From Gemmata massiliana (GTDB lineage: Bacteria; Planctomycetota; Planctomycetia; Gemmatales; Gemmataceae): a DNA stretch of 64,000 nt. Every line of letters starts with the position of its first letter. Position 1 is the stretch's first letter. The notes beneath the pieces were generated by a model. It worked only from the letters and a program-made list of their open reading frames with translations. It ran no database searches and had not been told where the DNA came from. Positions 23,716 through 44,280 of the stretch are shown here, piece after piece. The position numbers and the translations under genes were made by a program. Location: the NCBI GenBank assembly GCA_000531095.1, contig HG799467.1, positions 270,536 through 334,535 of the forward strand. Direction: 5' to 3'.

Positions 23716-23745
23716 CTACCACGTCCAATCGACGCGGTAGACGTG
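23716..23745. repeat. 30-bp direct repeat, right copy (3' end of kinase gene)
   Basis: Identical to 23062-23091. This copy includes the kinase stop codon (CTA on the plus strand). Within the unit, CTACC-A-CGTC and GACG-C-GGTAG form an imperfect hairpin around CAATC, a symmetry often seen at recombination sites. Confidence 0.95.
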
Positions 23746-25677: not shown

Positions 25678-26055
25678 AAAGCCGGTGCGCAGGAGCAAAA
25701 GGCGGTACGAGTCACTTTAGCTTGTTTTGTGGGGCCGCGATAGGAGAACCGCCCGCATTACTTCTCACGCGACAGCGGAACGTGGCCCTTAAAACGCCAC
25801 GTCGAACACCCATTCGGAGCGCCGACCGGCGGCTCACCAAACTCCGGCCGCAAATGCGATGGCGGCGCTGTCACATCTCCGAGGAACGCCTTCGTGGGTT
25901 CATGGATAAGGCCACCAAAACTAATTCGGAATCTCGTTCGAGCGACCTGAAAGATCGGTCGCGAGTACGCCGTAGAAAGGGGGCCGGTGAGGTGCCCGCT
26001 CGTGTGAGTTCGCGGCACCGATACTACGCGAGATTCTCACCAAACAGGGGGGTGT
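25678..26055. other. Gap between kinase and unknown gene
   Basis: About 380 bases. Frames exist on both strands, including one ending CSTWRFKGHVPLSREK on the minus strand, but none has a good start or a recognisable family. It may contain a decayed gene; nothing firm seen. Confidence 0.3.
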
Positions 26056-27645: not shown

Positions 27646-30408
27646 TCAATCGTGCGTTTCGAGCCGGTGGAGGATCTCGTCGAGCAGGGCGGGGCCGGTT
27701 TTGCGGTACGCGGCCTCGTGCGGGCACGCCTGCACGCAGTACGGTTCGTCGCCGTTGCACAGGTCGCAGTTCACCGCGCGCCGGGCCGCGGTCATGTACG
27801 GGTTGCCGCCGGGAACGTCGGCCGCGGCCGGATTCGGGGTGCCACGCGGCACCATGTGAATCGCCCCGTAGGGGCAGTTCCGTTCGCACAGCCCGCACCC
27901 GATGCAGTGGTTCTCGATGACCACTTCCAGGTGGTTCCCGCGCCGGTGGATCGCGTCCACCGGGCACCCCTCCATGCAGTACGGCTTGTGGCACGACCGG
28001 CACGAGGTCGCCACCAGGAAGTCGCCGAACCGCAGCCCCTCGCGCAGCAGGCGGGCGTTGCCATCATGGGAGTCGGCACAGGCGCGGGTACACTCGTCGC
28101 ACCGGGTGCAACTCTTCAGGTCGAGCACCAGGAGCTTCTGGCCCTGGTACAAGCCCTGGCGGACGTAGTCGCGGAGCACCGCGGGCGGTGGGGCTTTCTC
28201 GACCCCGGGCACCGCGGGGCGCGGGGCGGACTTCATGCCGTCCTTGAGCGCCGGGAACCGGTCGCAGAGTTTGCGGAACACGGGACCGGGCACGCGCACG
28301 ACCTCGACCGGATCGAGCGCGGCGATGGTCGCGGTGCGGGTGCCGGGGCGATCGGACAGGAGGCCCGTTTCGCCGAACCCGTCGCCGACGGACAGGATGC
28401 GGAGCACCTGTTCGCCGCCCCCGGCCGTGGTGAAGACGCGCACGGTGCCGAGCCGGATGATGTAGAACGCGGCGGCCGTGTCGCCCTCGGCAATGATCGT
28501 TTCGCCCGCGGCGACGCGCCCGAACTGCACGCCCTCGGTGAGCAGGAACGTGACCGCCTGCTGGCGCTCCATCGTGTCGAGCAACTGGAAGAGGCGCCCG
28601 CTCTGCACGCCCGTCTGGATCGCGCGCAGGGTGTACATTTCCTGAATGTCTTCCCGCGCGGACGCGGCCCGCTGCATCATGTCGAGCATGTTGCGGGTGA
28701 TTTCGTACACGATGACCGGCCCGGACCGCGTGGGGTGCGGGGTGACGGTGGGCCAGCCGTTCTCGTCGGTCCCGAGCACGAGTTCACGGTTATCCGTCTC
28801 CGCGACGCCGATCACGCTCGCGACGCGCGGGCGCTGGGTGACGCACGTCATTTCCCCGAGTACCAGTTCGTCGCCCATCGCGACCTTCACGAGATCGCCG
28901 TACCCGGCCGCCTTCGTGTTGCTGGCCTTCTTGCCGAACAAGCTCGCGAAGAACCCGGGCTTCTGGGTTTGTACCGCGCCGCGGACGTAGATCTCGAACG
29001 TGCCCGAGCCTTGCAGCAGGAACGCGGTGCTCCCGTACTCGCCCTCCTCGCACAGCACCTTCTTTTCGCCCGGGGCGATCTCCCACTTGCGGACCGCGCC
29101 CTCGTTCCACTTCAGGTACGAGTACGGGATCGAGCGGAACGGGAACACGACCCGCGGGCCGCGCGTGGGGCTCTCGTAGAGCAGCCAGACCTGCTGCATC
29201 TCGTCGGCGGTGAGGAACCCGGACGACTTCGGGAACGACGTGTTCGGGTTCACCGGGATCTGCTCCGGCGAGTCCTCCCAGGCCCGCGGGCGCACGCGGC
29301 GCCGCAGCGAGAGCGCACCGGTCGGGCAACTGTTCATGCACTCGCCGCACTGCACGCAGGTTGAGTCGCGCATGATCGAGTCGAGGTCGAAGCTGATGCG
29401 CGTGCCGTACCCCTTGCCCGTGTGCCCGATCACCTTGAACGGCTTCACTTCCGAGCACGCACGCACGCACCGGTCGCACAGGATGCATCGGTCGTGGTCC
29501 ACCACCACGGTGCGCGACGAGTACGGGTAGTTGTCGTCAATCAGTGCGTTCCACTCTTCCCACGCGGGGCGCAGGTCGGACCGCTCCTCGTTCAGTTCTT
29601 TCGCTTCGAGGGTGGGGAGTAGCGGCAGTTCGATGCGCCGGGATTTGGGGATCGCTTCCTGCGCGGTGTTGCGGCTGGGCAGTTCCGGGGCGCGCTGGAG
29701 GCTGTCGCGAACTTTGAATTCTACCTCGTCGTCGCGGACCTCGATCACGCCGAGGGACCGTGCCACCGTGCTCAGTTCGTCTTCATAACGGCGGGTCGGG
29801 GTGAGCGGCTCATGGCAGTGGTCCGCGACCAGGAACTCGGCGAGCATGCGGATGGACGAGTTCACGTCGCCCGCGGCGCGCTCGATCACCTTTTCGTCGG
29901 CCGTGGTGCGCTTCTCCGGGTTGTAGCCCCACATCCCGGCGCGCGTGGTGACCACCATGTTCGTTTCGATGCGGTGCTGGCACGCGGGCACCAGCTTGCG
30001 CCCGGCCGTTAACTTGCCGCGCTTCATGCTGCTGATGTGGACCGAGCACATGCGGCACACGGCCACCGGCGCGACGTGGCGCTGGTGGCACAGCACGGGG
30101 ATGCGGCTCTTGAGTTCCTCGTCGGACCACAGACCCTGTTCGACGAGCGCGGCCGCGGCGTCGTAGATGGTCGTGGTGCGCGGGATCTCCTTACCGTCCG
30201 CGTCGCGGAGCACGTTGCCCTGGGAGTCGGTCTTCGGAACCGCGCGCGGCACCTCGACCGCGTACCCGTCGATGACGATGGTCACCAGGTCGTTGAAGCG
30301 GTCGCGCGTTTCCTTCTCGCGGCGCACGAGGACGTCGTTGTCGTCGCGGGCGAAGAGGGATTCCTCTTCGCGGCCGAGAGAGATATCGGGATCGGCGAAG
30401 TCGGGCAT
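27646..30408 (-). CDS. NuoG-like / tandem cNMP-binding / four-cluster ferredoxin fusion
   Basis: 920 residues. Residues about 40-170: 2Fe-2S domain of NuoG/FdhA type (C-x10-C-x2-C, then C). The usual His-Cys cluster motif after it is reduced to DHCHEPLTP. Residues about 315-385: two 4Fe-4S sites (CILCDRCVRAC and CVQCGECMNSC). Residues about 410-580 and 650-740: two cyclic-nucleotide-binding-type barrels (GEMT...RVAS and FGETGLLSDRPGTRTATI). Residues about 770-915: four 4Fe-4S sites of HycB/DmsB type (CTRCDECTRAC, CRSCHKPYCMEGC, CIGCGLCERNC, CDLCNGDEPYCVQAC). No molybdopterin domain. Follows the NuoEF fusion; together they should oxidise NADH and pass electrons to the membrane cytochromes (inference). 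Confidence 0.85.
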   Translation of the reverse strand: MPDFADPDISLGREEESLFARDDNDVLVRREKETRDRFNDLVTIVIDGYAVEVPRAVPKTDSQGNVLRDADGKEIPRTTTIYDAAAALVEQGLWSDEELKSRIPVLCHQRHVAPVAVCRMCSVHISSMKRGKLTAGRKLVPACQHRIETNMVVTTRAGMWGYNPEKRTTADEKVIERAAGDVNSSIRMLAEFLVADHCHEPLTPTRRYEDELSTVARSLGVIEVRDDEVEFKVRDSLQRAPELPSRNTAQEAIPKSRRIELPLLPTLEAKELNEERSDLRPAWEEWNALIDDNYPYSSRTVVVDHDRCILCDRCVRACSEVKPFKVIGHTGKGYGTRISFDLDSIMRDSTCVQCGECMNSCPTGALSLRRRVRPRAWEDSPEQIPVNPNTSFPKSSGFLTADEMQQVWLLYESPTRGPRVVFPFRSIPYSYLKWNEGAVRKWEIAPGEKKVLCEEGEYGSTAFLLQGSGTFEIYVRGAVQTQKPGFFASLFGKKASNTKAAGYGDLVKVAMGDELVLGEMTCVTQRPRVASVIGVAETDNRELVLGTDENGWPTVTPHPTRSGPVIVYEITRNMLDMMQRAASAREDIQEMYTLRAIQTGVQSGRLFQLLDTMERQQAVTFLLTEGVQFGRVAAGETIIAEGDTAAAFYIIRLGTVRVFTTAGGGEQVLRILSVGDGFGETGLLSDRPGTRTATIAALDPVEVVRVPGPVFRKLCDRFPALKDGMKSAPRPAVPGVEKAPPPAVLRDYVRQGLYQGQKLLVLDLKSCTRCDECTRACADSHDGNARLLREGLRFGDFLVATSCRSCHKPYCMEGCPVDAIHRRGNHLEVVIENHCIGCGLCERNCPYGAIHMVPRGTPNPAAADVPGGNPYMTAARRAVNCDLCNGDEPYCVQACPHEAAYRKTGPALLDEILHRLETHD

Positions 30409-30471
30409 GGTGGAAACTCACGCGGGCGCTGAACGAGTTCGGCGATTCCGGACGGTCGGGCTTTTCTGATT

Positions 30472-30526
30472 GTGGCACAGGCCTCTGGCCTGTGTTGCGG
30501 TTCCACAGGCCAGAGGCCTGTGCCAC
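30472..30526. repeat. Dispersed palindromic repeat, 23-bp arms (copy 2)
   Basis: Perfect inverted repeat 30472-30494 / 30504-30526, with the same arms as at 4708-4763. It lies between the NuoEF fusion gene and the NuoG-like gene, inside what should be one operon, so it may form an RNA hairpin that tunes the level of the downstream gene. Confidence 0.9.
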
Positions 30527-30555
30527 GGAAACAAGGCTGGTGCGCTCTCGTCGCC

Positions 30556-32604
30556 TCAGCCCCGCGGCTTCTTCTGGGTGTCTTCCATGAAGTACGAGAG
30601 CGCGGTGGCGAGCGGGATGGGTGCGACGTACCCCAACCCGCAGATCGACGTTAGCTGCAACGTCTTGGTGATTTCCTTTACGTCGGACTTGATGCGCTCG
30701 GCCTCCTCCCCGGCGACCGGCTTGCCGGAGTCGCGGCGCGTGAGGAGCTCCTGACCGATCTGCACCAGCTTCTGCGACCCGAGCCGGCACGGGATGCACT
30801 TGCCGCACGACTCGTTGCGGTAGAACTCGGTGTAGTTCACTGCTTGGTCGAGCAGGTCCACGTTGCCCGCGTAGACGGCGATCGCGGCGCCGAGCATCGG
30901 CTCGACCGGGAACCGTAGGGCGCCGTTCATGTGGCGGAAGAAGTTCAGGTCGAGCGGCACCTTCAGCAGGTCGAGTTCCGTTGCGCCCATCGGGATGTGG
31001 GTGCGGAGGAACCACGCCATGTAGTCGGCGTCCTGTGCGGAGCGCTCGCGGATCTTGGCGACCGCGTCCGCGCGCTTCTTCTCATCGAACTTCGGGTCGA
31101 TGGGGATCTTTGCGGGTAACAGCCCACCGGACGGACCGGATGCCGCGACCGCCCGGAGCGGCCCCGTGATCCCGCCGCAATACTTGTCGCCGGTGAACAG
31201 CTCACCCAGCGTCAGGCCAACCGCGACCTCGTAAACCCCGGGCCGGGCCACGTCGCCGCTCACGGAGAACAACCGGCGCCCGCCGAACTTGATCTTCGGG
31301 TCCGCGGCCAGGCGCCACCCGCCCATCTCGTACTTGTCGCCGCCGAACAGCACGATGCCCGGCGCCCAGGCGAGCGTCTCCACGTTGTTCACGACCGTGG
31401 GTCGGTCGCGCAGGCCGTTGGTTGTCAGTTCGGGCGGACGGTTGCGGGGCTGCCCGCGCCGGTCCTCCATTGCTTCGATGAGCGCGGACTGTTCACCGCA
31501 AATGTACCCACCGGGGCTTTCAAACACCTCGACCGAGAAGTTGCGCCCGGAGCCGAAGATGTTCTCGCCGCACGCGCCCATCTCGCGCGCCCGCTCGATC
31601 TCCTCGCGAACCGCGTGGATCTGTTCGTGGTACTCGTGGCGGATGAAGATGTATCCGGCCGATCCGCCGGTCATGAGGCCCGCGAGGATCACACCCTCCA
31701 CAACGAGGTGCGGCATCCGCAGCAAAATCTCGCGGTCCTTGAACGTGCCCGGCTCGCTCTCGTCGCCGTTGCACACGACATACTTTTCCGTCCCCGACTC
31801 ACGCCACACGTCGAGCCACTTCTGGTACGCGGGCGCGCCGGCCCCGCCCATCCCGAGCAGGTTGGACGTCTTCAGTTCCCACAGCAGCGGGTGGAACCGC
31901 TGGACGTAGTTCTCCAGATCCTTACCGCCCATGTCGCGGGGCGGGGGCACGAGCGGCCGGATCAGTTTCGACAGGTAATCGGTGAAGCGCTTGATGGCAC
32001 GGTAGTCGCGGGGCCAGCGCTGGCGCCCGTACACGTCCAGCGACCAGCCGGCCGCGGGAAGGGGAGGGTGGGCGTTGTCGCCGTCGGATGGAGGAGTCGT
32101 GTATCCGCGGTTCGAGTTCGTGTGCGGGGGGTATTCGGCGTCCGGGTCGGGAGCGGGTGGGTCGCGGTCGTCGGCCAGCGCGCGGAGCACCTCTTCCAGA
32201 TCCTGACCCGGGCGGTTCGCGTACACCCAGGCGTGAACGTCCTCGGGCATCGGGCGCTTCTCGACCCAGACGGCCGGCGCGCGGTCGCACCGGCCCAAGC
32301 ACGACACGCCCTCGACGCAGATCTTCTTCCCGGTGCGCTCCGACAGTTCGGCCGCGAGTACGGGCAATCCGGTCCGCTCGTTCAGGAGCGCTGCGGACCC
32401 GCGCAGGTGACACGTCATGTCGCGGCAGACGCGCATCTCGATGTCGGGCGGGTTGGTCCGTTCGAGCTTGAACGCGGGGAAGAAGCTGCTCACCTCTTCC
32501 AGCCGGTACATTGGCACGTCGATTTCGCGCGAAAGCTCCTTCAGCTCCTTATCGGGAAGGAAGCCGAACCGGTTTTGGATGTCGCGGAGCCGCTGGACGA
32601 TCAT
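30556..32604 (-). CDS. NuoE-NuoF fusion (NADH-binding flavin/Fe-S subunit)
   Basis: 682 residues. Residues 1-135: NuoE-like thioredoxin-fold 2Fe-2S domain with CRDMTC and CLGRC ligands. A Pro/Asp-rich linker covers about 140-190. Residues about 240-670: NuoF domain with FMN/NAD loop GMGGAGAPAYQKW, NGDESEPGTFKDRE, GGYICGEQSALIEAMED, a SLBB-like middle, and the 4Fe-4S site SCGKCIPC plus a later Cys in SICGLG. All cofactor residues appear intact, so the protein should accept electrons from NAD(P)H. It sits between the decahaem cytochrome and the NuoG-like fusion on one strand. Confidence 0.9.
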   Translation of the reverse strand: MIVQRLRDIQNRFGFLPDKELKELSREIDVPMYRLEEVSSFFPAFKLERTNPPDIEMRVCRDMTCHLRGSAALLNERTGLPVLAAELSERTGKKICVEGVSCLGRCDRAPAVWVEKRPMPEDVHAWVYANRPGQDLEEVLRALADDRDPPAPDPDAEYPPHTNSNRGYTTPPSDGDNAHPPLPAAGWSLDVYGRQRWPRDYRAIKRFTDYLSKLIRPLVPPPRDMGGKDLENYVQRFHPLLWELKTSNLLGMGGAGAPAYQKWLDVWRESGTEKYVVCNGDESEPGTFKDREILLRMPHLVVEGVILAGLMTGGSAGYIFIRHEYHEQIHAVREEIERAREMGACGENIFGSGRNFSVEVFESPGGYICGEQSALIEAMEDRRGQPRNRPPELTTNGLRDRPTVVNNVETLAWAPGIVLFGGDKYEMGGWRLAADPKIKFGGRRLFSVSGDVARPGVYEVAVGLTLGELFTGDKYCGGITGPLRAVAASGPSGGLLPAKIPIDPKFDEKKRADAVAKIRERSAQDADYMAWFLRTHIPMGATELDLLKVPLDLNFFRHMNGALRFPVEPMLGAAIAVYAGNVDLLDQAVNYTEFYRNESCGKCIPCRLGSQKLVQIGQELLTRRDSGKPVAGEEAERIKSDVKEITKTLQLTSICGLGYVAPIPLATALSYFMEDTQKKPRG

Positions 32605-32668
32605 CGAAGAACCTGATGGTTGGCGCCTGGAGTTCCAGAGAGCAGACGTCCGAAGACTCTGCCCTCTG

Positions 32669-34294
32669 CTACTTACTGCTGCCCTTGAGCCAGTTGAGCA
32701 GGTCGAGCGGTTTGCTCGCGTCCCGGGCCGGGGCGCCGCGCCCCTGGAGCGGGTGGTCGCCGTTGTGGTAGCGGTGGCAGTCGGTGCAGTTGTGCCGCGC
32801 GCCGCCGCCCAGGACGTCCGGGCTGTCGGACACCTTGATCTTCGTGCCGAGCGGCGAGTGGCACGCTCGGCAGGTGTTGATGCCCACGATCTGCACCGGC
32901 TCCGGTTTGTCCGCTTCCACCTTGGAGATGTAGTCGGCGCCCGTCCCCGGGTGGCACGTCGCGCACGTCGTTCCGCGGTGCGAAGCGTGGTTGAACTTCG
33001 CGTGCTTGAACCAGACCGTACGGTCCGGGACGGCCGTGACGCGGGGCTTGGCCTTTCCGTCGCCCGGCGTCATGGTGTGACACTTCGCGCAGCTTCCGGC
33101 AGGTTCAAAGAGCAGCCCCTCCGCGAGTCCGGCGAGCCGCTCGGCTTCTTGCCCCAAAGTGCGCGGAGCGAGGTTCTTCGGGGGCGCGTCGAGCTTGCCA
33201 CCGAGTTCGGGCGGCGCGTTCAGGGCCGGGTGCCCGCTGTCGCTCAGCCCCTTCAGGTAGCCGGCTTTCAGATCAGCGATGAGGTCGGTCGGTTGCTTGC
33301 GGTGCGGCACATCGAACCGCGGCACTTCAAACTTCTTTCCGTTGGCTTCGCTCACGCCCTCGTTCGCCTTCTGCGGGTGGCACGAGCGGCAGTGGGCCTC
33401 GAAGTTGACAGGGAGGAAGTACGCGCCCTCGGCACGCGGGGGGAGCAGGGCACGGGTCGGATCGTCCTTCGCGAGCGTGTCCTTGAGCGAGTTAAAGCCG
33501 GGGGAACCCACGCCCGAATCGAGCGCGTGGCAGGAGGCGCACTGGAGTTGCACCTTTACGTCGTCGGCCGCGCCGGGGGCGAACCGGGTAACGGCCGCGT
33601 CCCCGCCCAGTTCGCGGAGCCGCTTCACCGTCATCGCTTCTTTTCCGTCGGCCGTGTACGCCTGACCGGGGTTCATGTGGATGGCGTGGCTGAACTTGAG
33701 CGTGCGCGGGTTCGCGGAAGTGTCCAGCGAGCGGAACTCGGGGTGGTCCTTCACGAAGTTCGTGATCTCGTTCTGGTACGGTTCGCCGGCCTTGGACTTG
33801 TTCGACTCGTGCCACTTGCCGAGGTTCTCGTGGCACTGGTTACAGTCCTTGTCGGCCAATCGCACGAGCGAACTCAACCGCCCGTTGTGGTCGTGGTGGC
33901 AGTTGGAGCAGCGGTCGTGGAACGCACGGGCGCCCGCGTTCGCGGAGTCGTGGTGGCCGGGGCCGGAGTGACACTTTTCGCACGTCAGGTCGTGCCGGCG
34001 GTCGCGCGCGTTGAAGACGGACACCGGCCCCAGGTCTTTCAGCCCGTGGGCGACGTGGCACGCGGCACAATTGTCGTCGAAGGAAGCGTGCGGGTTCGAG
34101 AGCGGCCCGTGCGAGTGCGCGTACTGAACGCGCTGGACCGGCTGAACGACGTCCACCGCGGCCCACGCGCCGGCGGCGAGTAGAGCCATCCAACCGAGGG
34201 CGATCTTCCCGCGGCGCAGCGCGTCCGGCCGGCGGAAGTAGCCGCGCTTCCCGGTGAACCGGTCCGACAGGTCGCGACTTGGTGAACGAGGCAT
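32669..34294 (-). CDS. Decahaem c-type cytochrome, membrane-anchored
   Basis: About 541 residues from ATG 34292-34294 (MPRSPSRDLSDRF). An N-terminal anchor helix (KIALGWMALLAAGAWAAV, about residues 28-48) is followed by ten CxxCH haem-binding motifs: CAACH, CEKCH, CSNCH, CNQCH, CASCH, CRSCH, CAKCH, CATCH, CRACH and CTDCH, with many extra His for distal ligation. The spacing resembles cytochrome c7/c3-like multihaem conduits. It would act in the periplasm. Flanked by the cytochrome b gene upstream and the NuoEF fusion downstream, so probably the exit route for electrons. Confidence 0.9.
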   Translation of the reverse strand: MPRSPSRDLSDRFTGKRGYFRRPDALRRGKIALGWMALLAAGAWAAVDVVQPVQRVQYAHSHGPLSNPHASFDDNCAACHVAHGLKDLGPVSVFNARDRRHDLTCEKCHSGPGHHDSANAGARAFHDRCSNCHHDHNGRLSSLVRLADKDCNQCHENLGKWHESNKSKAGEPYQNEITNFVKDHPEFRSLDTSANPRTLKFSHAIHMNPGQAYTADGKEAMTVKRLRELGGDAAVTRFAPGAADDVKVQLQCASCHALDSGVGSPGFNSLKDTLAKDDPTRALLPPRAEGAYFLPVNFEAHCRSCHPQKANEGVSEANGKKFEVPRFDVPHRKQPTDLIADLKAGYLKGLSDSGHPALNAPPELGGKLDAPPKNLAPRTLGQEAERLAGLAEGLLFEPAGSCAKCHTMTPGDGKAKPRVTAVPDRTVWFKHAKFNHASHRGTTCATCHPGTGADYISKVEADKPEPVQIVGINTCRACHSPLGTKIKVSDSPDVLGGGARHNCTDCHRYHNGDHPLQGRGAPARDASKPLDLLNWLKGSSK

Positions 34295-34402
34295 CTTGCA
34301 CCCAGAAACAGTAAACAGTGTTCGGCGCGCTGGTGCCTGCGAGAGCACGGTGTAACGAGTTTAACCCGGCCCGAGCACCGAAAACCGTATACGGAACACG
34401 AA

Positions 34403-35284
34403 TCACCAATATTTCAGCGCCCGGACCGCGTGGAGAACCATCAGCGCGGTCATCGCCACCGAGAGCGGCAGGTGGACGAGGAGCCAGTTGTGCAGCCAGA
34501 AGTACAACTGGGCCTGCGCGTCCCACCGGCGCCGCAAGTTGGCCAGTTCCTGGAGCCGGTCGAGGTCGTTGCGGGCCTCGGGCGGGACCGCTTCGCGGAG
34601 CCGGGCGAACCGGCGCTCAGCCTCGGCCGGGGCCGTTAGCGGCGAGCGCGAGTGACTGCCCCGTTGCAGGTACGGCAGGAGTACGTCGTCGCGGAACGCT
34701 TCGAGTTCGACCGCGAGCGGCCCGCCGATGATCGGGTCGACCGCTTCCGCTTCCGGGGGAACGGTCGTCAGCCCGGTCACGATGCGGCGGGCCTCGTCCG
34801 CGTGGTACTCGCCGAGGCGATCGATCTGCGAAGCGATCGTTTCACCCGGGATGTCCGCGAGCATCTTCTGCGGGAGCCACTGCTGCATGATGAGCCCCCA
34901 CACGCCACTGAACGTGACGAGCAGGAACAGCACCAGCGTGACCGTGGCGAGCGGCCCCCCGAACCCGAAGCCCGCGTGGATCAGAATAACCGGCAGGCAG
35001 ATCAGCCCCATCCAGATGTGGAGCCGCATCCACAGCCGCGTGCGGCCCAGGCGCCACCGGCGCCACCGCTTGCGGAGGACAATCGCCATCTCGAAGAACA
35101 CGATGGCCCCGCCCACCACGCCGCACAGGACGCCGAACCCGCTGCTCGGCAGGGGCGGCCAGTCCCACAGCGTGACCAGCGCGCCGAGCCGGGCGAGGAT
35201 CACCCCGATGAGGGTGACCCCGACGGTGGCGATCACGATCGTGGTGATGCGCCGCTGCACGGTCTTCGTCTTGCCGAGAAGCAC
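34403..35284 (-). CDS. Membrane cytochrome b-like protein
   Basis: 293 residues starting at GTG (35282-35284) with GGAG six bases upstream. Four to five transmembrane segments. His residues sit in membrane helices in RLHIWMGLICLPVILIHAGF and in the C-terminal LHNWLLVHLPLSVAMTALMVLH, a pattern suited to two b-type haems. A hydrophilic cytoplasmic or periplasmic loop of about 110 residues lies between helices. First gene of the minus-strand redox operon. It probably transfers electrons between the quinone pool or Fe-S module and the decahaem cytochrome. Family name not certain. Confidence 0.75.
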   Translation of the reverse strand: MLLGKTKTVQRRITTIVIATVGVTLIGVILARLGALVTLWDWPPLPSSGFGVLCGVVGGAIVFFEMAIVLRKRWRRWRLGRTRLWMRLHIWMGLICLPVILIHAGFGFGGPLATVTLVLFLLVTFSGVWGLIMQQWLPQKMLADIPGETIASQIDRLGEYHADEARRIVTGLTTVPPEAEAVDPIIGGPLAVELEAFRDDVLLPYLQRGSHSRSPLTAPAEAERRFARLREAVPPEARNDLDRLQELANLRRRWDAQAQLYFWLHNWLLVHLPLSVAMTALMVLHAVRALKYW

Positions 35285-35715
35285 TCGCCGCTCCGGTTAG
35301 TTCGTTGCGCCTTGGGGTTAGGTTCAGGATAGTAACCCACTCAAACGGAGCGGTCAACATTCCAGAATCCGGGTTTCCGGGTCAGTGACACCGGGCCGTC
35401 ACTCCAGTCGGATTGCGCCGTCCATCCCGTTACGGTCCGTACCTTAGAACTCACTTTGACGATTTTCTCGTCTTGTTTGAATTTATTTGCCCGCACGCGG
35501 GGCAAAGAGGCCCTATGGTCGGAACTTGAAGGGCATTGGAGCCGAAAATGGCTCTTTTGTTGTGTGAAGAACCGGTGCTTGGTGTGCCGCCGCGGACGGT
35601 GCATACTCTGAAGCCGGGTGAACACTCTGGCCGAATGACCAGTAAATGCCGAGGAGAGGTGGCCCGGTCCGGGATTTTGACATCAGGTGTTGATGACGGG
35701 CGTGGTGGCTTGCAC

Positions 35716-35830
35716 CTACCCACCGCCCTTGCGGGCGGGGTTCACCAGGGGCGTGGCGGGGTGCCACGGGTGATGGGACTACCGGTTTTGCCAAAGTGCG
35801 GTGAACCCCGCCCGCAAGGGCGGTGGGTGG
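35716..35830. repeat. Inverted repeat, 30-bp arms
   Basis: Arms 35716-35745 and 35801-35830 match with one mismatch (core CCCACCGCCCTTGCGGGCGG), separated by 55 bases. Each arm also contains an inner palindrome CCGCCCTTGCGGGCGG. Distinct in sequence from the repeats at 4708 and 6580. Confidence 0.88.
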
Positions 35831-35982
35831 CAGACGCCCGTTGCAGGTGACCCGCACTCGTTGTTGGCGAATGTTAGCTACCGTACACGGTTGCCAGAAC
35901 GCCGAGATGGTGCCAAAGTACAGGAAATATTAGGAATTGGAGCCCTCTCGACGGACCGATGCGGCTCCCGTGGCCCGGAAAG

Positions 35983-35998
35983 GTTAGCAATTGTTAGC
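35983..35998. repeat. TTAGC repeat motif (copy 1)
   Basis: GTTAGCAATTGTTAGC, a direct repeat of GTTAGC with a short spacer. Identical to 57441-57456. Surrounding sequence in both places shows further TTAGC units and loose similarity over more than 100 bases. Located about 190 bases before the pentahaem cytochrome operon. Confidence 0.7.
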
Positions 35999-36188
35999 CG
36001 GGGGCGGACCGGTCGGAACGGAGGGCGGCTTCAGTTTGATTTTGCACTTAACGTGCGATCACGGGTGAAGTGTTCGTGTTGAATGGTGCTTGCCGTTGCA
36101 CCCGAAAACGCCGAACATGGTGAACGCGCCGGCCGGCGCATCGTAGCTCGCGGGTTTCTCAAACACTGACCCACATTCTCGGCTGACA

Positions 36189-37655
36189 ATGAATCTCAGC
36201 GCGCGTACAGTTGCTCTCACGCTAGCCGGAGTGATCCCCGGCGTTGCACTCGCGTTGGCTGCTGCCCGGGTCGCCCCGACCGCCACAATCAGCCTCCCCG
36301 TACCCGAGGCGCGTGCGGCGAGCAGCGAAGGGGCCGGGAACGCTAACAGGCAAGCCATCGGTATGTCCGGGTGCCTCGCGGCGGCGTGTCACGGAGCGCC
36401 CGCGGGCAAGGTGCTGAACGGTGAGCGCGGGATCGATTGCTGGCAAAGCTCGGGGAGTTGTTGGGCCGCGGCCGATCCGCACACCGCGGCGTACAGCCTG
36501 TTGACCGACAACCCGCGGCGCCCGCTGAAGATCACGGCCGCGAAGATCATGGCGAAGTACGCGCCGGGGAAGAAGGCGACCGAGGACGCTCGCTGCCTCG
36601 CGTGCCACACCAATCCGGCGCTCGCGCGGGAGGAACTGATTCCCGATGCGAACGCTCTTGTATTGCGCGAGCAAGGGGTGAGTTGCGAGGCGTGCCACGG
36701 CAACGCCAGCGTGTGGCTCCAACCGCACACCGCGTGGAAGGGAGATCGGGCGAAGGTCTACGCAGACACGGGAATGAAGCCGCTGTACGACCTGGGCGAG
36801 CGGGCGCTTGCGTGTGCCGGGTGTCACGTCGGTGCCCCGGCCGAGAACGGGCTGCCGGTTCGTGACATGAATCACGACATGATTGCAGCCGGGCACCCGC
36901 GCCTGAACTTCGACTTCGCCGAGTACCAGCGCCGGTTGCCGCAACACTGGCAGGAGAAGGACCGCACGAAGAGCAGTTACTCGCCGATCGTGCCGAACGA
37001 GGCGAAGGTCTGGTTCGTCGGGCGCGTGGCCCACGCCGAGGCCGCGTGCAAGTTGCTCGAAGACCGCGCGAAACGGTCACTCGACGCGAACGAGCACCGA
37101 ACGCCGTGGCCGGAGTTCGCCGAGTTCAACTGTGCGTCGTGCCACCACAACCTCCGCATACCGGGGAAGAGCGAGAAGTACGGCGACTGGCGGAAGAGTT
37201 CCGAGTACCTCGGCGAGCGCCCGATCGGTGTTCCCCCGTGGCAGATGATTTGGCCGCTGACGTCCGCGGCGGGCATCGAGTCGCCGAAGCGGGATCAGGC
37301 GCTCTTAAAGACTGTGGTTCTCGCAATGGAGTCGCCGCGCCCCGCAAAGGCGGACAAGGCGCAAGGCGTTGCGAAAACCACAGGAGAGCAGGCCGGAAAC
37401 TTGCGGCGCGAACTCGTGTCGCAGCCCGGTGAACAGGTCGAAGCGCGGGCACGAGCCTTCTTCCCCCGAGGGGCGCTGAACCTACCCGAGTGGGACAGCG
37501 CGACACAGGTGTTTTTCGGCCTCGCGGCGCTGGAATACGCTCGCGGGAAACCGAGCGACACCGTGGTGAAGAAGTACCGCAGCGGCGTGACCGCGTTCCG
37601 CGATCAGGACTGGGATCGGCTAGAGAGCGCTTTCAAAGCGATTCACGAGAAGTGA
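36189..37655 (+). CDS. Pentahaem c-type cytochrome (c554-like), first of three
   Basis: 488 residues with an N-terminal signal/anchor (VALTLAGVIPGVALALAAA). Haem sites: CLAAACH (a C-x4-C-H site), CLACH, CEACH, CAGCH and CASCH, so four standard sites plus one wide one. The block RDMNHDMIAAGHPRLNFD is shared with the next gene. The C-terminal 170 residues lack haem motifs and are helical. Resembles the cytochrome c554 family used in nitrogen and multihaem electron chains. Periplasmic. First gene of a three-cytochrome operon. Confidence 0.88.
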   Translation: MNLSARTVALTLAGVIPGVALALAAARVAPTATISLPVPEARAASSEGAGNANRQAIGMSGCLAAACHGAPAGKVLNGERGIDCWQSSGSCWAAADPHTAAYSLLTDNPRRPLKITAAKIMAKYAPGKKATEDARCLACHTNPALAREELIPDANALVLREQGVSCEACHGNASVWLQPHTAWKGDRAKVYADTGMKPLYDLGERALACAGCHVGAPAENGLPVRDMNHDMIAAGHPRLNFDFAEYQRRLPQHWQEKDRTKSSYSPIVPNEAKVWFVGRVAHAEAACKLLEDRAKRSLDANEHRTPWPEFAEFNCASCHHNLRIPGKSEKYGDWRKSSEYLGERPIGVPPWQMIWPLTSAAGIESPKRDQALLKTVVLAMESPRPAKADKAQGVAKTTGEQAGNLRRELVSQPGEQVEARARAFFPRGALNLPEWDSATQVFFGLAALEYARGKPSDTVVKKYRSGVTAFRDQDWDRLESAFKAIHEK

Positions 37656-37675
37656 CACCCAAACGGATTCCCCGC

Positions 37676-39223
37676 ATGGATGCGCCGGACACGAACCGCG
37701 GGTTTAACGTGCGTGCCGTTCCCCTCATCGCGGTAACACTCGTCGCAATCGTCGCGGGCGTGTTCAACACGGCGCAGTCGCACCAACCACCGACCGCCGC
37801 GGTCGCGATCGTCGCACCAACAGCTAAACCTTACGGCGTCGATAAGGTCGATTTCAAAGAGCCGTTCACGTACCGCGCGAGCACCTCGTGTTCGGCATCG
37901 GCGTGTCACGGTGGAGGGGCGATCGGGAAGGTCGGGAGCGAGCACTCGACCTGGGCGCGTGAAGCGGTTTCGGCCGGAACGAGCGACCCGCACTCCAAAG
38001 CGTACAGCGTGCTGTTCAACCCCGTCTCCGTGAAGATGGGCAAGGCGCTTGGAATCAAGGAGCCGCACAAGGACGCCCGGTGCCTCGCGTGTCACGCGGT
38101 CGATAGTGTGAAAGACTCCGCGACCCACGACCAGATTCTGGCCGAGGGCGTCGGCTGCGGTGCGTGTCACGGTCCCGCGGACAAGTGGATCGCGGAGCAC
38201 ACGCTCCCGTCGTGGAAGATCCGTAGCAACCAGGAGAAGTGGACCGAGTTCGGGTTCGTGCCGACGAAGAACCTCGTGGCCCGTGCGCTGAACTGCGCGA
38301 GCTGCCACGTCGGGGACAGCGAGCGCGACATGAACCACGACTTCATCGCGGCCGGGCACCCGCGGCTCGCGTTCGAGCCGGCCCGGTTCCACTTCCAACC
38401 GGATTACCGCAAGCACTGGACCGAAAAGGGCGATCCTCTCAGCTTTGAAGTGCGCATGTGGGTCATCGGGCAAGCCGCGACGCTGCGGGCGTCGGTGAAC
38501 TTGCTCCACGAGCGGGCGAAGAAGGCCGACGCGCCGAACGAGAAGGCGCCGTGGCCGGAGTTCAGCGGTTACAGTTGCTACGCCTGCCACCAAACGATCG
38601 GTGACACGGAAACACGCGGGAGCCTGAGTGCGACTCCGCGCACGCCCGGCGTGCCGGGGTGGGAGGTCTGGTCGAACACGACGGTTGATGTGGCGGCGAA
38701 GTCTTGCGAACTCGCGTTCCCCGGGCTAAGCTCGCCCGAGTTACGCGACGTGAAGCTGCCGGCGGTCGAGGAACTACGCAAGTTCATGGGGGCGAAGCGG
38801 GCGCCCGCGCCGGGCGAGGTCGCGAAGCGTGCGAAAGCGGCCGTGGTCGAACTCGATACGTGGCTCGCGCACCTGCAAGCCGCCGAGGACCGCGGGCCGA
38901 GCTTCGTCGGGCGCGACGCGCCCGCGAAAATCGCACACCGGCTCGCGACAAATGCTCTATCTTCGGACGGGAAGGTGCTCGCGGATCACGACTGGGATTC
39001 ACTGGCGGCGAACTACCTGGGCACGGCGGCCATGTACCACGCGGCCGGCGGTAAAGCGGGAACAGGTGCCGGGTGGCACGACCCGCTGACCGCGATCGAC
39101 AAGAAACTGCGGTTCCCGCCGATCGCGAACGGGCCGGTGAAGTTCGACCGGCTCAGACTGGACCCGATCCGCGACAGCTTCGAGTCACTGCGCAACAAGA
39201 CGGGCACACCGGAGGGGAAGTGA
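37676..39223 (+). CDS. Pentahaem c-type cytochrome (c554-like), second of three
   Basis: About 515 residues from ATG 37676 (MDAPDTNRGFNVRAV), 20 bases after the previous stop. An N-terminal membrane segment (PLIAVTLVAIVAGVF) is followed by CSASACH (again C-x4-C-H), CLACH, CGACH, CASCH and CYACH. Shares RDMNHDFIAAGHPRLAF and overall layout with the gene before. The C-terminal half is helical without haem sites. Ends TGATG, overlapping the next start by one base, so translation of the next gene is coupled. Confidence 0.88.
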   Translation: MDAPDTNRGFNVRAVPLIAVTLVAIVAGVFNTAQSHQPPTAAVAIVAPTAKPYGVDKVDFKEPFTYRASTSCSASACHGGGAIGKVGSEHSTWAREAVSAGTSDPHSKAYSVLFNPVSVKMGKALGIKEPHKDARCLACHAVDSVKDSATHDQILAEGVGCGACHGPADKWIAEHTLPSWKIRSNQEKWTEFGFVPTKNLVARALNCASCHVGDSERDMNHDFIAAGHPRLAFEPARFHFQPDYRKHWTEKGDPLSFEVRMWVIGQAATLRASVNLLHERAKKADAPNEKAPWPEFSGYSCYACHQTIGDTETRGSLSATPRTPGVPGWEVWSNTTVDVAAKSCELAFPGLSSPELRDVKLPAVEELRKFMGAKRAPAPGEVAKRAKAAVVELDTWLAHLQAAEDRGPSFVGRDAPAKIAHRLATNALSSDGKVLADHDWDSLAANYLGTAAMYHAAGGKAGTGAGWHDPLTAIDKKLRFPPIANGPVKFDRLRLDPIRDSFESLRNKTGTPEGK

Positions 39224-40989
39224 TGACGACGGGATACGCGGGTCGGGCCGCGCGCGCGGTCGGGCTAGCGGGGGCGTTCGCCGGCCTCGTGATCGGGCTC
39301 GTCGTTTCCTCCGCGTCGGTGCGGCCGGTGGGCGCCACGCAGAAGGACGAAAAGAAAGCCGATTACCCACGCCCGGGCGCCTCGGACAAGGCACAGCACG
39401 GTCTGCTCGGCGCGGCCGAGTGCAAGAACTGTCACTCGGAAACCAAACCGCAGGATAAGGAACTGTACCAACAGACGAAAGGGTACGAGTTCATTCGGTT
39501 GTCTGAGAACATCATCTGGAGCACCCACGACCTGCACTCCACTGCGTACCGAAGTCTCTTGACCGACCGAACCGTCAAGAACAAGAAGGACAAGCCGAAC
39601 GCGACCGCGCAGCGGATGGAAGACAACCTGCGGAAGTACAAGGGCGACACGTACACGGTCGCGAACGACATCGGGTGCTTGGCGTGCCACGCGAGTACCA
39701 AAGCGCCGTTGGCGCGAACCCCGCACACCGAATGGAAACCGACCTCGTTCTCGACCACCGAGGGCGTCGGGTGCGAGATGTGCCACGGGCACGGCACCAT
39801 GTACGAGCGAACGCACCGGGCCAGCCGCGACGACGATACCCCCAACCCGCCGACGGAAAAGGTGGTGGACTGGCGGAGCTTCCCGACCGCGCTCAAGAGC
39901 GAATGGGGGCTGACCAACTTGCGCGACCCGGCCACGGCGACGCACACGTGCGCCTCGTGCCACATCGGGAACAAGGACGAGGGCCGGTTCGTCACCCACG
40001 ATTGGTACGCGGCCGGGCACCCGCCGCTCCCGCCACTCGACCTGATGGCCTACGCCCGTGAGCAACCCCGGCACTGGGGCTTCGCGCACGAGATGCCGTA
40101 CATCACCAGCCTCGCGAGCAAGGCCGCGACAAAGGACAAGGCCTTCGCCCTGTACCACTACCGACAGGACGAGTCGTTCGTCGCCCGACGGTTCGCCGAG
40201 TCGTCGCTCGCCACTCTCGGCGCAACAGCGAGCCTCGGCTCGCAACTCGCTGCCGACGCGAAGGCCAAGGCCGATGGCCTCGATTTCGCCGCGTTCGACT
40301 GCTACTCGTGCCACCACAATTTGAAGTACCCCAGCGAGCGCCAGGACCGCGGGTACGTCGGGCGCCCCGGGCGCCCGCTCTACCGCCCGGCCGCGTTCGC
40401 GCTCGCCCGGCTCGTTCTCAGCCACGCGGCCGGGATGAAGGGGCCGGACCTCAAGACCGCAGTGGCCGAACTCGACGCGGCCGAACTCGCGCTGGCCGAT
40501 GCGTTCACCGCCAAGACCTACGGCGACCCGGACAAGGTCAAAACGGCGACCGCGAACATCGCCAAGTGGAGCGAGGACGTGCGGAAGAAGCTCGAAGCCG
40601 TGCGGTACACGCCCGAGGAGACCAAGCGGTTGTTTGAAATGGTCAAGGCCGCCGCGACCGACGAGAAGAGGCCCGTCGGTGACCCGGAAGTGGCACAGCT
40701 CTACACATGGGCCATCGAAACGCTGTTCATCGACTTGCAGTCGAAGGAAAAAACGGACAAGCGGGAGGAACCGAAGGCGCTAATCGAGATGCGGACCAAA
40801 CTCGACGGTACGATCGTGACGCGGCTCCGGCCGAACGCGGCCTTCTATTACGAGCAGGGCGTGACCGGCGGTATTCCCGGGCCGACCGTCGAATCGGTCG
40901 ATAACCGGCTCAAGGTGCGCATGGAAACGTTCAACTCGTTCCGCCGCGACCCGTTCCGCAAGGCGCTGGGAGAAATCAAGCTCCCGTAA
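39223..40989 (+). CDS. Pentahaem c-type cytochrome (c554-like), third of three
   Basis: About 588 residues from ATG 39223, with GGAGGGG a few bases upstream and a one-base overlap with the previous stop. Signal/anchor in residues about 10-32 (GLAGAFAGLVIGLVVSSASV). Five standard haem sites: CKNCH, CLACH, CEMCH, CASCH and CYSCH; unlike its two relatives the first is not the C-x4-C-H type. DWYAAGHPPLPPLD corresponds to the AAGHPRL block. A long helical C-terminus. Followed by a strong hairpin. Confidence 0.88.
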   Translation: MTTGYAGRAARAVGLAGAFAGLVIGLVVSSASVRPVGATQKDEKKADYPRPGASDKAQHGLLGAAECKNCHSETKPQDKELYQQTKGYEFIRLSENIIWSTHDLHSTAYRSLLTDRTVKNKKDKPNATAQRMEDNLRKYKGDTYTVANDIGCLACHASTKAPLARTPHTEWKPTSFSTTEGVGCEMCHGHGTMYERTHRASRDDDTPNPPTEKVVDWRSFPTALKSEWGLTNLRDPATATHTCASCHIGNKDEGRFVTHDWYAAGHPPLPPLDLMAYAREQPRHWGFAHEMPYITSLASKAATKDKAFALYHYRQDESFVARRFAESSLATLGATASLGSQLAADAKAKADGLDFAAFDCYSCHHNLKYPSERQDRGYVGRPGRPLYRPAAFALARLVLSHAAGMKGPDLKTAVAELDAAELALADAFTAKTYGDPDKVKTATANIAKWSEDVRKKLEAVRYTPEETKRLFEMVKAAATDEKRPVGDPEVAQLYTWAIETLFIDLQSKEKTDKREEPKALIEMRTKLDGTIVTRLRPNAAFYYEQGVTGGIPGPTVESVDNRLKVRMETFNSFRRDPFRKALGEIKLP

Positions 40990-41068: not shown

Positions 41069-42868
41069 TCAGCTCACTACGACGGATTGTGGTGAGCCGA
41101 GGGTTGCCACGTTTCCGGCGTTGTCGGTTGCCTTCGCGTTCACAGTGTAGGTGCCGGGGACCGTGAGGGCGTAGCTCCAGGTCGCGAAGTTGTCCGTTGT
41201 CGTGGCCAGGAGGAACACTTCCGTCGCGCTGTCGAACGCGCTGCCGGAGTAGTACATCCCGGTGCCGTTCACGTCCAGAATGCTGACCTCCACCTTCTGG
41301 ACGCCCGACGCGCCGGCCGTGTCGCTGCTCGTTCCGGTGACCTCGGCGGTGCCGGTTGCGTCTACCGTTACCGCGGGCGGGGTCGTGTCGTACACGAAGC
41401 TGAACTGGTTCGTCGCGTTCTGGTTGCCCGCCACGTCGACCGCGGCGCCCGCCGGGACCGAGACCGTGACGGTGCCGTCCGCAGTCGGGGTCACGTCGAT
41501 CGTGAAGACCCGGCCCGTGGTCACGGTCTGGAAGTTCGACTTCGTCCCGTTCGTGACGGTGACGTCGTCCGTGGTGAAGTCGGTCACGTCCTCGCTGAAG
41601 GTGATCGTCACCGTCACGAGGCCCTGGTTCGTCGGGACGCTCGGGCTCGTGGTGAAGACGATGGTCGGCGCGGCCGCGTCGACTATCAACCCGGTCGCGT
41701 TCGACGCTGAGCCGATGTTGCCGGCCGCGTCGGTGGCGGTCACGGAAACCGAGTACGTGCCGTCGGCGAGTGCGTCGGTGAGGTTCACGCCCCAAGTGGT
41801 GCCGGACACGGACGCTGTGTAAAGGCTCCCGTTGACGGTCACCTGCACGGTCGCCGACGAGTCGTCCACGGTGCCGGTGATGGTCGGGCTCGCGCTGTTG
41901 GTCGTCAGCGCGTTGATTGCGACGACCGGGGCCACGCTGTCGTAGGTCAGTTCCACGGTGTTCGACAGCAGGTTCCCGTTGCCGTTCGCGTCGACCGCGG
42001 CGTTCGCGCCGACCGTCACGGACACGGCCCCTTGGCCCGTCGGGGTGACCTCGATCAGGTACACCCGGGCGTCCTGTGCGGTGAACGACGTGATGGTGCC
42101 GTTGTTCACCGTGACGTCCGATGCGTCGAACCCGGTCACGTCCGCGTCGAAGGTGACCGTCAGCGCAATGGGGCTGGTGTTGGTCTGGGCCGGGACCGTG
42201 GTCGTCACGAGGACCGTCGGACCCGAGTCGCTCGTGTCCACGGTCGGGCGCGTGCCGCTGGTGACGCCGATCGTTGCCGGGCGCGCGATGGTGGACCCGC
42301 GGTTCTCGAAGTAGTCGCTGCCCGCGGGGTTGAAGATACCGAAGTCCGTGACACCGATGCTCGACGCGATCACGGTGTCGTCGCCGGCGCCGGTGTCGAG
42401 GTACACGTACCGGCGGAACACGGACCCGTTGAGGATCACGGTGTCGTTACCGGCCCCGGTCGCCAGGGTGCTCTCGGAGCGGTGCCCGGCGTCCGAAATG
42501 CCCAAGGTGTCGTTCCCGTCGCCCGTGTCGACGTTGAGCGTGCCCTTGTTGCGCGTGCTCGTCACGAGCAGTTGGTCGTCGCCCCCGAACATCCGGATGT
42601 AGAGGTCGTGCTTGATCCCGCTCACCGAGATCGGACCGGCCTGCCCGTTGATCGTGGTCGTGTCGTCGAGCGCGCGGATGGTCACGCTGCTGCGGCCGGT
42701 GCCCGCGATCCAGATCTGGTTGCCCAGGTCGTCGCCCGCGACGTAGAGCGTACCGTCGAACAACATGACTTGCACGTTACCGGCCGGGACCGTGCGGTCT
42801 TCTAACCACTCCACACGGGGTACGAACCGTCCAGTCTTCGGCCGCTCACCACGTTCGCCCAAATTCAT
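41069..42868 (-). CDS. Exported surface protein with LEDR motif, Ca-type repeats and Ig-like domains
   Basis: 599 residues. The N-terminus has RFVPRVEWLEDRTVPAGN, the planctomycete-specific L-E-D/P-R sorting motif of giant surface proteins. Residues about 85-180 contain RTX-like acidic repeats (GGDDQLLV, DTGDGNDTLGI, LATGAGNDTVI, LDTGAGDDTVI). From about 215 on, several bacterial Ig-like repeats follow, two of them similar (ADVTGFDASDVTV and EDVTDFTTDDVTV). Very few Lys or Cys, typical of cell-surface adhesins. The gene ends before a strong terminator and has no obvious partner. Confidence 0.82.
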   Translation of the reverse strand: MNLGERGERPKTGRFVPRVEWLEDRTVPAGNVQVMLFDGTLYVAGDDLGNQIWIAGTGRSSVTIRALDDTTTINGQAGPISVSGIKHDLYIRMFGGDDQLLVTSTRNKGTLNVDTGDGNDTLGISDAGHRSESTLATGAGNDTVILNGSVFRRYVYLDTGAGDDTVIASSIGVTDFGIFNPAGSDYFENRGSTIARPATIGVTSGTRPTVDTSDSGPTVLVTTTVPAQTNTSPIALTVTFDADVTGFDASDVTVNNGTITSFTAQDARVYLIEVTPTGQGAVSVTVGANAAVDANGNGNLLSNTVELTYDSVAPVVAINALTTNSASPTITGTVDDSSATVQVTVNGSLYTASVSGTTWGVNLTDALADGTYSVSVTATDAAGNIGSASNATGLIVDAAAPTIVFTTSPSVPTNQGLVTVTITFSEDVTDFTTDDVTVTNGTKSNFQTVTTGRVFTIDVTPTADGTVTVSVPAGAAVDVAGNQNATNQFSFVYDTTPPAVTVDATGTAEVTGTSSDTAGASGVQKVEVSILDVNGTGMYYSGSAFDSATEVFLLATTTDNFATWSYALTVPGTYTVNAKATDNAGNVATLGSPQSVVVS

Positions 42869-43125: not shown

Positions 43126-44280
43126 CTACCCGGCGCAGACCCCGTTCGCGCGCGCGCCTTCGGGCGCGGGCACCTGGGGCAGTTCGCGCGGGCCGCGCGC
43201 GTTGTCGAGCACGAACTTCTGGAAGTGGTACACGCGCTCCTCGCGCGTGCCGATCACCCCGGGGTGCGGGCTGACCTCCATCCCGCGCTGCACGCCCGCG
43301 TAGATCGACCCGTCCTCGGCGAACACCTTCTTGGCGATCATCGTCGAGATGGACCGGAGCGCGCGGTACAGCGCCCACGCCAGCGGGTTCTGCCGGTGCC
43401 CGCGCAGCGTGAAGAAGATGGACCGGTAGCGGCACGACGTCGGGCCGGTCGGGAACACGCACTGCATCATGCGGAACGAGTCGAGCGAACTGCCGGTCGC
43501 GTGCGGGTGCAGCACGCGGTGCCAGTATTCGTTGGTCACCGGCTCACCCATTCGGCGCACGATCCAGTCTTGCGCGTAGGTCGCGAACTCGCGCGGCGGG
43601 ACCGTTTTGAACGACGTGAACCGGTCGGTCAGTTCGTGCCACGCATTTTCTTCCTGCGGGAACTCTTTGAACGTGTAGGGGTGGACTTCCGGGATGTGGT
43701 ACGACTCCAGCGAGTTCTCGAGCACCACCTTCCAGTTGCACGCGAAGTCCTTCTCCCACGTCCCGGCGTGCCGGTACGCCCCACCGTAGTCCTGCCACAC
43801 GTCCCACAGCGGACCGATCCACTCGCGGAGCGACGGGCCGCTCTCGTTGAAGTTGACGAACACGAGGTCGCCGCACGTGTCTACGCGGAACCGGCGCAGG
43901 CACGAGTTGTCGCGGTCCCAGGGGCGGAACGCCTTCGCGTCCGGGATCTTCCCCGTACCACCGTCCTTGTTGAATTCCCACCCGTGGTACTGGCAGCGGA
44001 GCTTCTCCGCGTTCCCGCGTGCTTTGTCCGTCAGGCGGCTGTGGCGGTGCGGGCACACGTTCAGGAACGCGCGCAGTTCGCCGTCGAAGTTGCGGATCAG
44101 GATCGGCGTGTCGAGCAGGTCGAACGTGAGGAAGTCGCCCGGTTTCGCGAGGTCGCTTTTCACAGCGAGAGGGTGCCAGGCCGGATGAAAGAGGTGACGG
44201 AGTTCCGCGCGGTACTGTTCTTCGGACGTATAGTGGTGCGGCCGCAGGAGGTGCTTGAGGTGGTGCTGATTGGTGAACAT
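43126..44280 (-). CDS. Rieske non-haem iron oxygenase, alpha-subunit type
   Basis: 384 residues. Rieske 2Fe-2S ligands C76-x-H78 (CPHRHS) and C96-x2-H99 (CQYHGW). The catalytic-domain motif NWKVVLENSLESYHIPEVHP gives the bridging acidic residue and the two His of the mononuclear iron. Layout fits the family that includes choline monooxygenase and ring-hydroxylating dioxygenases. No reductase or ferredoxin gene next to it. It faces the lipid synthase cluster across the S49 gene and could modify its product, but the opposite strand makes that a guess. Confidence 0.88.
   Translation of the reverse strand: MFTNQHHLKHLLRPHHYTSEEQYRAELRHLFHPAWHPLAVKSDLAKPGDFLTFDLLDTPILIRNFDGELRAFLNVCPHRHSRLTDKARGNAEKLRCQYHGWEFNKDGGTGKIPDAKAFRPWDRDNSCLRRFRVDTCGDLVFVNFNESGPSLREWIGPLWDVWQDYGGAYRHAGTWEKDFACNWKVVLENSLESYHIPEVHPYTFKEFPQEENAWHELTDRFTSFKTVPPREFATYAQDWIVRRMGEPVTNEYWHRVLHPHATGSSLDSFRMMQCVFPTGPTSCRYRSIFFTLRGHRQNPLAWALYRALRSISTMIAKKVFAEDGSIYAGVQRGMEVSPHPGVIGTREERVYHFQKFVLDNARGPRELPQVPAPEGARANGVCAG

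Follow-up and report, generated by a model that had tools for sequence, protein, structure and literature searches.

A putative outward electron conduit with a cyclic-nucleotide-binding Fe-S hub encoded in Gemmata massiliana

Which process is served by a locus that encodes a chain of electron carriers, from an NADH dehydrogenase module to periplasmic multihaem cytochromes, but no enzyme for a recognisable substrate? This question is raised by a redox island in the genome of Gemmata massiliana (9.27 Mb, 96.5% complete), which lies within positions 27646-40989 of the window, i.e. the whole 64,000-nucleotide stretch of DNA that was analysed. A first-pass annotation had described there a seven-gene set leading from NADH to multihaem cytochromes and lacking a linked catalytic subunit. 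Every gene was found at its position by analysis of the open reading frames, Pfam matches and motif counts, and, as described, no catalytic subunit for a known substrate is linked to them.

Gene content and predicted cofactors

The genes form two divergent groups separated by a 904-base gap, with four genes on the minus strand and three on the plus strand:

34403-35284, minus strand: membrane dihaem cytochrome b (293 aa, GTG start, five predicted transmembrane helices)
32669-34294, minus strand: c-type cytochrome with exactly ten CXXCH (decahaem) and a single membrane anchor at the N-terminus
30556-32604, minus strand: NuoE-NuoF fusion, predicted NAD(P)H dehydrogenase (682 aa; FMN, [2Fe-2S], [4Fe-4S])
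27646-30408, minus strand: Fe-S hub (920 aa) with NuoG-type head, two CNB domains and four-[4Fe-4S] tail, from Pfam, PDB sequence and fold searches
29254-30291, minus strand: hub head, ~residues 40-385 (PF13510, PF13187, PF22117)
28789-29091, minus strand: CNB domain 1, cassette LGEMTCVTQRPRVAS (from alignment, boundaries approximate)
28258-28518, minus strand: CNB domain 2, residues 631-717, cassette FGETGLLSDRPGTRTATI (PF00027, E=5.5e-21)
27709-28131, minus strand: hub tail with four [4Fe-4S] motifs (PF00037/PF12838; TIGR02951; HydN/DmsB/HycB-like)
36189-37655, plus strand: pentahaem c554-like cytochrome 1, periplasmic, with N-terminal signal/anchor (PF13435, E=6e-10; 4 CXXCH + CX4CH)
37676-39223, plus strand: pentahaem c554-like cytochrome 2 (PF13435, E=8e-8; 4 CXXCH + CX4CH)
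39220-40989, plus strand: pentahaem cytochrome 3 (PF13435, E=7.6e-5; 5 CXXCH)

Counted by motif, the island is predicted to hold one FMN, nine Fe-S clusters (two [2Fe-2S] and seven [4Fe-4S]) and 27 haems (2 b and 25 c). Between the two operons lies a REP-like palindromic element (window 35713-35830) with ~30-base arms around CACCGCCCTTGCGGGCGGGGTTCACC, for which 142 matches were found across the genome. Judged by eye, the island is flanked by a serine/threonine kinase-like protein (23716-25698) and an Ig-repeat surface-like protein (41069-42868), and a 384-aa protein with the Rieske-like motif CPHRHSRL...CQYHGWEF (43126-44280) is probably a ring-hydroxylating oxygenase.

The NuoE-NuoF fusion matched PF01257, PF01512 and PF10589, and its FMN motif, NuoE cluster Cys and N3 cluster Cys are all present. 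Its relatives among PDB sequences are HydB, NuoF and the beta subunit of formate dehydrogenase (Fdh). In most island NuoF sequences GMGGAG replaces the GRGGAG of complex I and Fdh, a difference that can serve as a signature of island NuoF; the glycine loop is altered (GMGGAGAP), and the predicted donor is either NADH or NADPH. Bifurcating enzymes of the BfuABC type have a NuoF-like subunit with extra C-terminal ferredoxin clusters; in the island protein, according to Pfam, the NuoF part stops after the N3 domain and no such clusters follow.

The first-pass annotation had spoken of a NuoEFG-like module and of a large Fe-S protein. NuoE, NuoF and a NuoG head are indeed encoded, but the term is too strong because NuoG is represented by its head alone; the remainder of the large protein, which is an Fe-S protein as described, consists of CNB and Fe-S parts, and its two CNB domains had been overlooked. 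The head aligns with NuoG of the organism's own complex I, with formate dehydrogenase FdhA and with HydA, and its clusters are assigned to C107, C118, C121 and C143 ([2Fe-2S]) and to C308-C318 and C351-C361 ([4Fe-4S]); the same alignment shows no Cys for a His-ligated cluster of the NuoG type. Because the same head precedes a molybdopterin domain in related Fdh loci, the CNB/Fe-S part occupies the position of a catalytic domain. Both by sequence and by fold, the best matches of the CNB domains are regulatory subunits of PKA and PKG, and the phosphate-binding cassette retains its Glu and Arg in nearly all of 15 hub orthologues, the exception being L044 in CNB domain 2; these domains probably sense cAMP or cGMP. 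The PDB matches of the tail are HycB3/HycB4 of HDCR, and all 28 cluster Cys of the hub (12 in the head and 16 in the tail) are invariant in 15 orthologues. The structure model of the hub is of low confidence in the Fe-S parts and usable in the CNB region alone. To our knowledge, no characterised redox enzyme has PKA-type CNB domains between its Fe-S clusters.

For the decahaem cytochrome, the ATG at 34294 was preferred as start over the GTG at 34348 because its homologues begin with MPRSPS. None of the ten CXXCH varies among 19 homologues, the most distant at 25% identity, and further His residues are likewise invariant. Pfam gave weak matches to multihaem families; the island shows a weak similarity to PF22113 (MtrC/MtrF). 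Two distant families (loci L202 and L203) carry the decahaem gene as two reading frames, one with 4 haems and one with 6, and the gene of G016 (L053:6314-7954) has an apparent frameshift that places 6 and 3 haem motifs in separate frames, due to a sequencing error or a broken gene. The three plus-strand proteins all exceed the gathering score (20.8 bits) of PF13435, the cytochrome c554 family, and each has a fifth haem motif, so that the earlier label of pentahaem holds for each of them, with the detail that in two proteins one of the five motifs is CX4CH. The start of the third gene overlaps the second by 4 bases. Inspection by eye revealed no lipobox in the leaders of the pentahaem proteins.

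Occurrence and partners in planctomycetes

The hub gene is present in 18 of 18 sister species, and in 15 of them the core of cytochrome b, decahaem, NuoE-NuoF and hub genes lies on one stretch, contig ends cutting G003, G015 and G018. Among the genomes examined, 36 from seven families (sister species included) have this core on one stretch, 25 of them with the pentahaem genes as well, and 27 from ten families have a core of cytochrome b, decahaem and hub genes without NuoE-NuoF; as the genomes were chosen from search hits, these counts should not be read as frequencies. Of 392 Planctomycetota genomes drawn evenly, 63 had the hub at E<=1e-40, mostly its CNB-plus-tail half, and a contig search with the hub protein yielded planctomycete records only. 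The genes are conserved together, contrary to one of the two outcomes that the first-pass annotation had named as refuting it: the gene order was found again across many genomes, and it is kept across families at 28-50% protein identity. The recurring order and the ten invariant decahaem CXXCH argue against a chance cluster. In G044, G037 and G095 the NuoE-NuoF/hub pair and the cytochrome b/decahaem pair are at separate places, and in the genomes of families f12 and f54 no cytochrome b and decahaem genes were seen beside NuoE-NuoF and hub.

Two variants were also observed. In family f4 (L148-L152) the locus encodes a tetrahaem c554-like protein, a 573-579-aa CNB/Fe-S protein, a cytochrome b and a ~700-aa 10-haem protein, with no NuoE-NuoF, and in G141 a 680-aa protein with 17 CXXCH (L189:3785-5827) adjoins the NuoE-NuoF/hub pair.

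In a tree from a quick search, in which long branches are present, 40 of the 45 island NuoE-NuoF sequences formed one supported clade, and the nearest relatives include planctomycete Fdh-type NuoE-NuoF. Two island sequences, both from family f57, grouped with the Fdh type, which suggests that NuoE-NuoF may have joined the core on more than one occasion.

A further multihaem protein is associated with the core, namely a cytochrome of 1351 aa with LVIVD repeats and ten haem motifs (9 CXXCH + 1 CX4CH), whose copy in the source genome is not linked to the island:

G000:C7:313832-317860 (L208:7842-11897): LVIVD-repeat decahaem cytochrome

It is encoded in every sister species (partially in G007), and its gene adjoins the island in G005, G011, G016, G017, G079, G089 and several more distant genomes. 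When the f4 cores of G074 and G078, which are divergent, are scored as absent, the core was found in 34 of 34 genomes with the LVIVD cytochrome versus 2 of 25 without it (59 genomes; Fisher 2e-14, or 3e-9 outside the genus, P values that ignore shared ancestry). No open-access paper was found that contains both 'LVIVD' and 'multiheme'.

Nucleotide cyclases were searched around the hub genes as well. Those of the PF00211 type were found at 10 of 80 hub loci, in eight genera and never more than 3 kb from the hub gene, versus 0.7 expected (Poisson 5e-9, or 9e-7 with one locus per genus, again ignoring shared ancestry). In the source genome, a class III nucleotide cyclase (L208:5591-7522), homologues of which lie near hub genes elsewhere, is divergent to the LVIVD gene; this adjacency is not kept in the close sister G012 and was given little weight, because it is not general in the sister genomes. 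The putative cyclases of the source genome apparently retain the metal-binding Asp residues and lack the usual substrate Lys. The CNB domains, the core free of NuoE-NuoF, the LVIVD partner and the linked cyclases are all absent from the first-pass annotation.

Route and direction of the electrons

The crossing of the membrane depends on the cytochrome b, in which predicted haem ligands form an HX13H pair in each of two helices (H89/H103 in TM3 and H271/H285 in TM5). Across 22 homologues reaching as low as 19% identity, these four never vary and no other His is conserved throughout; a predicted cytoplasmic insert (~residues 145-256) precedes the last helix. A His pair in TM3 and another in TM5, each spaced by ~13 residues, are the pattern of the ferric-reductase superfamily: the ligands of NOX2 are H101/H115 in TM3 and H209/H222 in TM5 (PMC3591440), and DUF4405, PepSY-like and MsrQ-like proteins are reported to have a common four-His arrangement, with haem b spectra obtained from purified DUF4405 (PMC11334425). 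The homologues gave weak matches to PF14358 (DUF4405), PF01794 (ferric reductase) and PF03929 (PepSY); PF01794 matched 5 of the 22 members, with 2.5e-5 at best and 0.013 for the window protein, under the gathering score, and no Pfam match of the cytochrome b reached the gathering cut-off. Its AlphaFold model (pLDDT 82, pTM 0.62) had no PDB match by Foldseek at E<=0.001, its profile gave only chance-level matches among PDB sequences, and no cytochrome b was found in the plasmid search. The TM2-TM3 loop is rich in K/R in all members (mean net charge +5.7), and by the positive-inside rule H89 and H271 would therefore be near the cytoplasm and H103 and H285 near the periplasm.

From cofactor motifs, domain order, gene order and co-occurrence, we infer that the island encodes a membrane-spanning modular conduit, probably gated by cyclic nucleotides, that exports electrons from NAD(P)H in the manner of ferric reductases and MsrQ, a reading to which we give a probability of about 0.55. 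NAD(P)H would be oxidised in the cytoplasm at the FMN of NuoF, and the electrons would run through the NuoE/NuoF clusters into the hub, first its NuoG-type head and then its tail of four clusters, from there to the inner and then the outer b haem, the membrane being crossed on these two stacked haems, and on to the anchored decahaem protein, from which they would spread over the pentahaem cytochromes. The LVIVD cytochrome is a probable further recipient. Cyclic nucleotide binding to the two CNB domains, located between the hub clusters, would open or close the path. These protein contacts, the direction, the gating and the acceptor are predictions. Counted against the conduit are the missing gathering-level and PDB matches of the cytochrome b, the poor hub model outside the CNB domains, the altered glycine loop, the gene pairs that lie apart in some genomes and, as regards the cyclases, the adjacency absent from G012 and the missing substrate Lys. 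The b-type relatives move electrons outwards, and outward flow runs along the membrane potential, inward flow against it; the outward direction was chosen on these two grounds. As a canonical complex I is encoded elsewhere in the source genome (nuo cluster G000:C5:132000-147000), the island is unlikely to be the main entry of NADH.

Many dihaem cytochromes b handle quinones, and with a quinone site in this one the NuoE-NuoF/hub pair would reduce quinone, or quinol would feed the multihaem proteins; since the two gene pairs are at separate loci in some genomes, they may work apart. Its His pattern is however of the ferric-reductase type, and no above-cut-off Pfam match to a quinone-handling family was obtained, which makes such a branch unlikely.

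Of the three roles proposed in the first-pass annotation, the outward outlet fits best. Extracellular electron transfer, in which the decahaem, pentahaem and LVIVD cytochromes would lead across the outer membrane to minerals or partners, extends the conduit and is compatible with it, and the 25 extracytoplasmic c haems, the co-occurring large LVIVD cytochrome and the weak MtrC/MtrF similarity speak for it; however, a porin of the tested MtrB/PioB type (PF11854) was not found in the 96.5% complete genome, which leaves this role unsupported, and with leaders apparently devoid of a lipobox we hold it to be quite unlikely. The third role, a reverse path on which reduced periplasmic or extracellular donors would feed electrons inwards to make NAD(P)H, gains from the reversibility of all these carriers, from the NAD-reducing hydrogenase HoxF and the beta subunits of NAD-dependent Fdh among the NuoE-NuoF relatives and from the lack of a linked acceptor enzyme. 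It is nevertheless electrically unfavourable, since electrons moving inwards oppose the membrane potential and NADH is a stronger reductant than most c-type cytochromes; the island has no energy-coupling subunit according to Pfam, the organism has its canonical complex I, and we judge this path very unlikely. That the island is made of unrelated redox genes loosely grouped together, a view for which the separable sub-modules could be cited, is contradicted by the synteny across families at 28-50% identity and is scarcely credible.

Planctomycetes are mostly regarded as aerobic heterotrophs, and the outward conduit, if real, would give them a dedicated NADH outlet to the periplasm and would provide a redox enzyme with PKA-type CNB domains built in between Fe-S clusters, so that control of electron export by cAMP or cGMP becomes a testable question in this group. 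Found both with and without NuoE-NuoF in many families, the core is also a natural test of input-module swapping. A wider and rather doubtful proposal is that a cyclic-nucleotide-gated core of CNB/Fe-S hub, dihaem b and decahaem proteins is common to the phylum, with varied electron inputs grafted on, an Fdh-related NADH dehydrogenase in the Gemmata lineage, and with a periplasmic, possibly surface, multihaem network including the LVIVD cytochrome as output.

Comparison with known systems

The first-pass annotation did not recognise the set as a described complex and had named a close match to a characterised one as its other refuting outcome; Pfam, NCBIfam, PDB sequences and open-access papers yielded no such match. 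This novelty is provisional and refers to open-access papers for the literature and to planctomycetes for the occurrence. With complex I the island has NuoE, NuoF and the NuoG head in common; it was rejected as a complex I because the membrane pump and Q modules (NuoA-D, H-N) are absent from the island and a separate nuo cluster exists.

The diaphorases of NAD-dependent Fdh, HoxEFU and HydABC likewise have a NuoE-NuoF unit beside a NuoG-type 2Fe-2S + 2x[4Fe-4S] head. In the island, however, two CNB domains and a four-cluster tail replace the molybdenum or H-cluster domain, and the unit is accompanied by a cytochrome b and multihaem cytochromes. An Fdh was rejected on the absence of the molybdopterin domain (PF00384, PF01568), present in the relatives L083/L084, and a hydrogenase of the HydABC/HoxEFU type on that of the H-cluster domain PF02906, such as occurs in L087, and of NiFe subunits; NCBIfam NF040763 matched with 106 bits versus a cut-off of 765.

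The Mtr/Cbc systems resemble the island in their decahaem cytochromes, cytochrome b and the weak PF22113 similarity, whereas in the island the electrons apparently come from NADH and not from quinol, and Mtr-type extracellular transfer was rejected on the missing MtrB/PioB porin. With the ferric-reductase, MsrQ, PepSY and DUF4405 cytochromes, the cytochrome b shares four conserved His that are distributed over two helices, a pair of b haems and transmembrane electron transfer (PMC3591440, PMC11334425). It differs from them by its large insert before the last helix and the lack of a gathering-level Pfam match, and it is apparently fed by an Fe-S hub, with a decahaem protein as recipient.

In the Hmc, Tmc, DsrMKJOP and Nhc complexes of sulfate reducers, a membrane cytochrome b links periplasmic multihaem cytochromes to cytoplasmic Fe-S proteins. 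These are work-alikes, from which the island differs by its NADH input module, its CNB domains and the absence of an NrfD-like subunit (alternative complex III/Hmc-type), none being found among the seven proteins by Pfam and NCBIfam. The conduit would belong to a known kind of system, with the CNB hub as its unusual feature.
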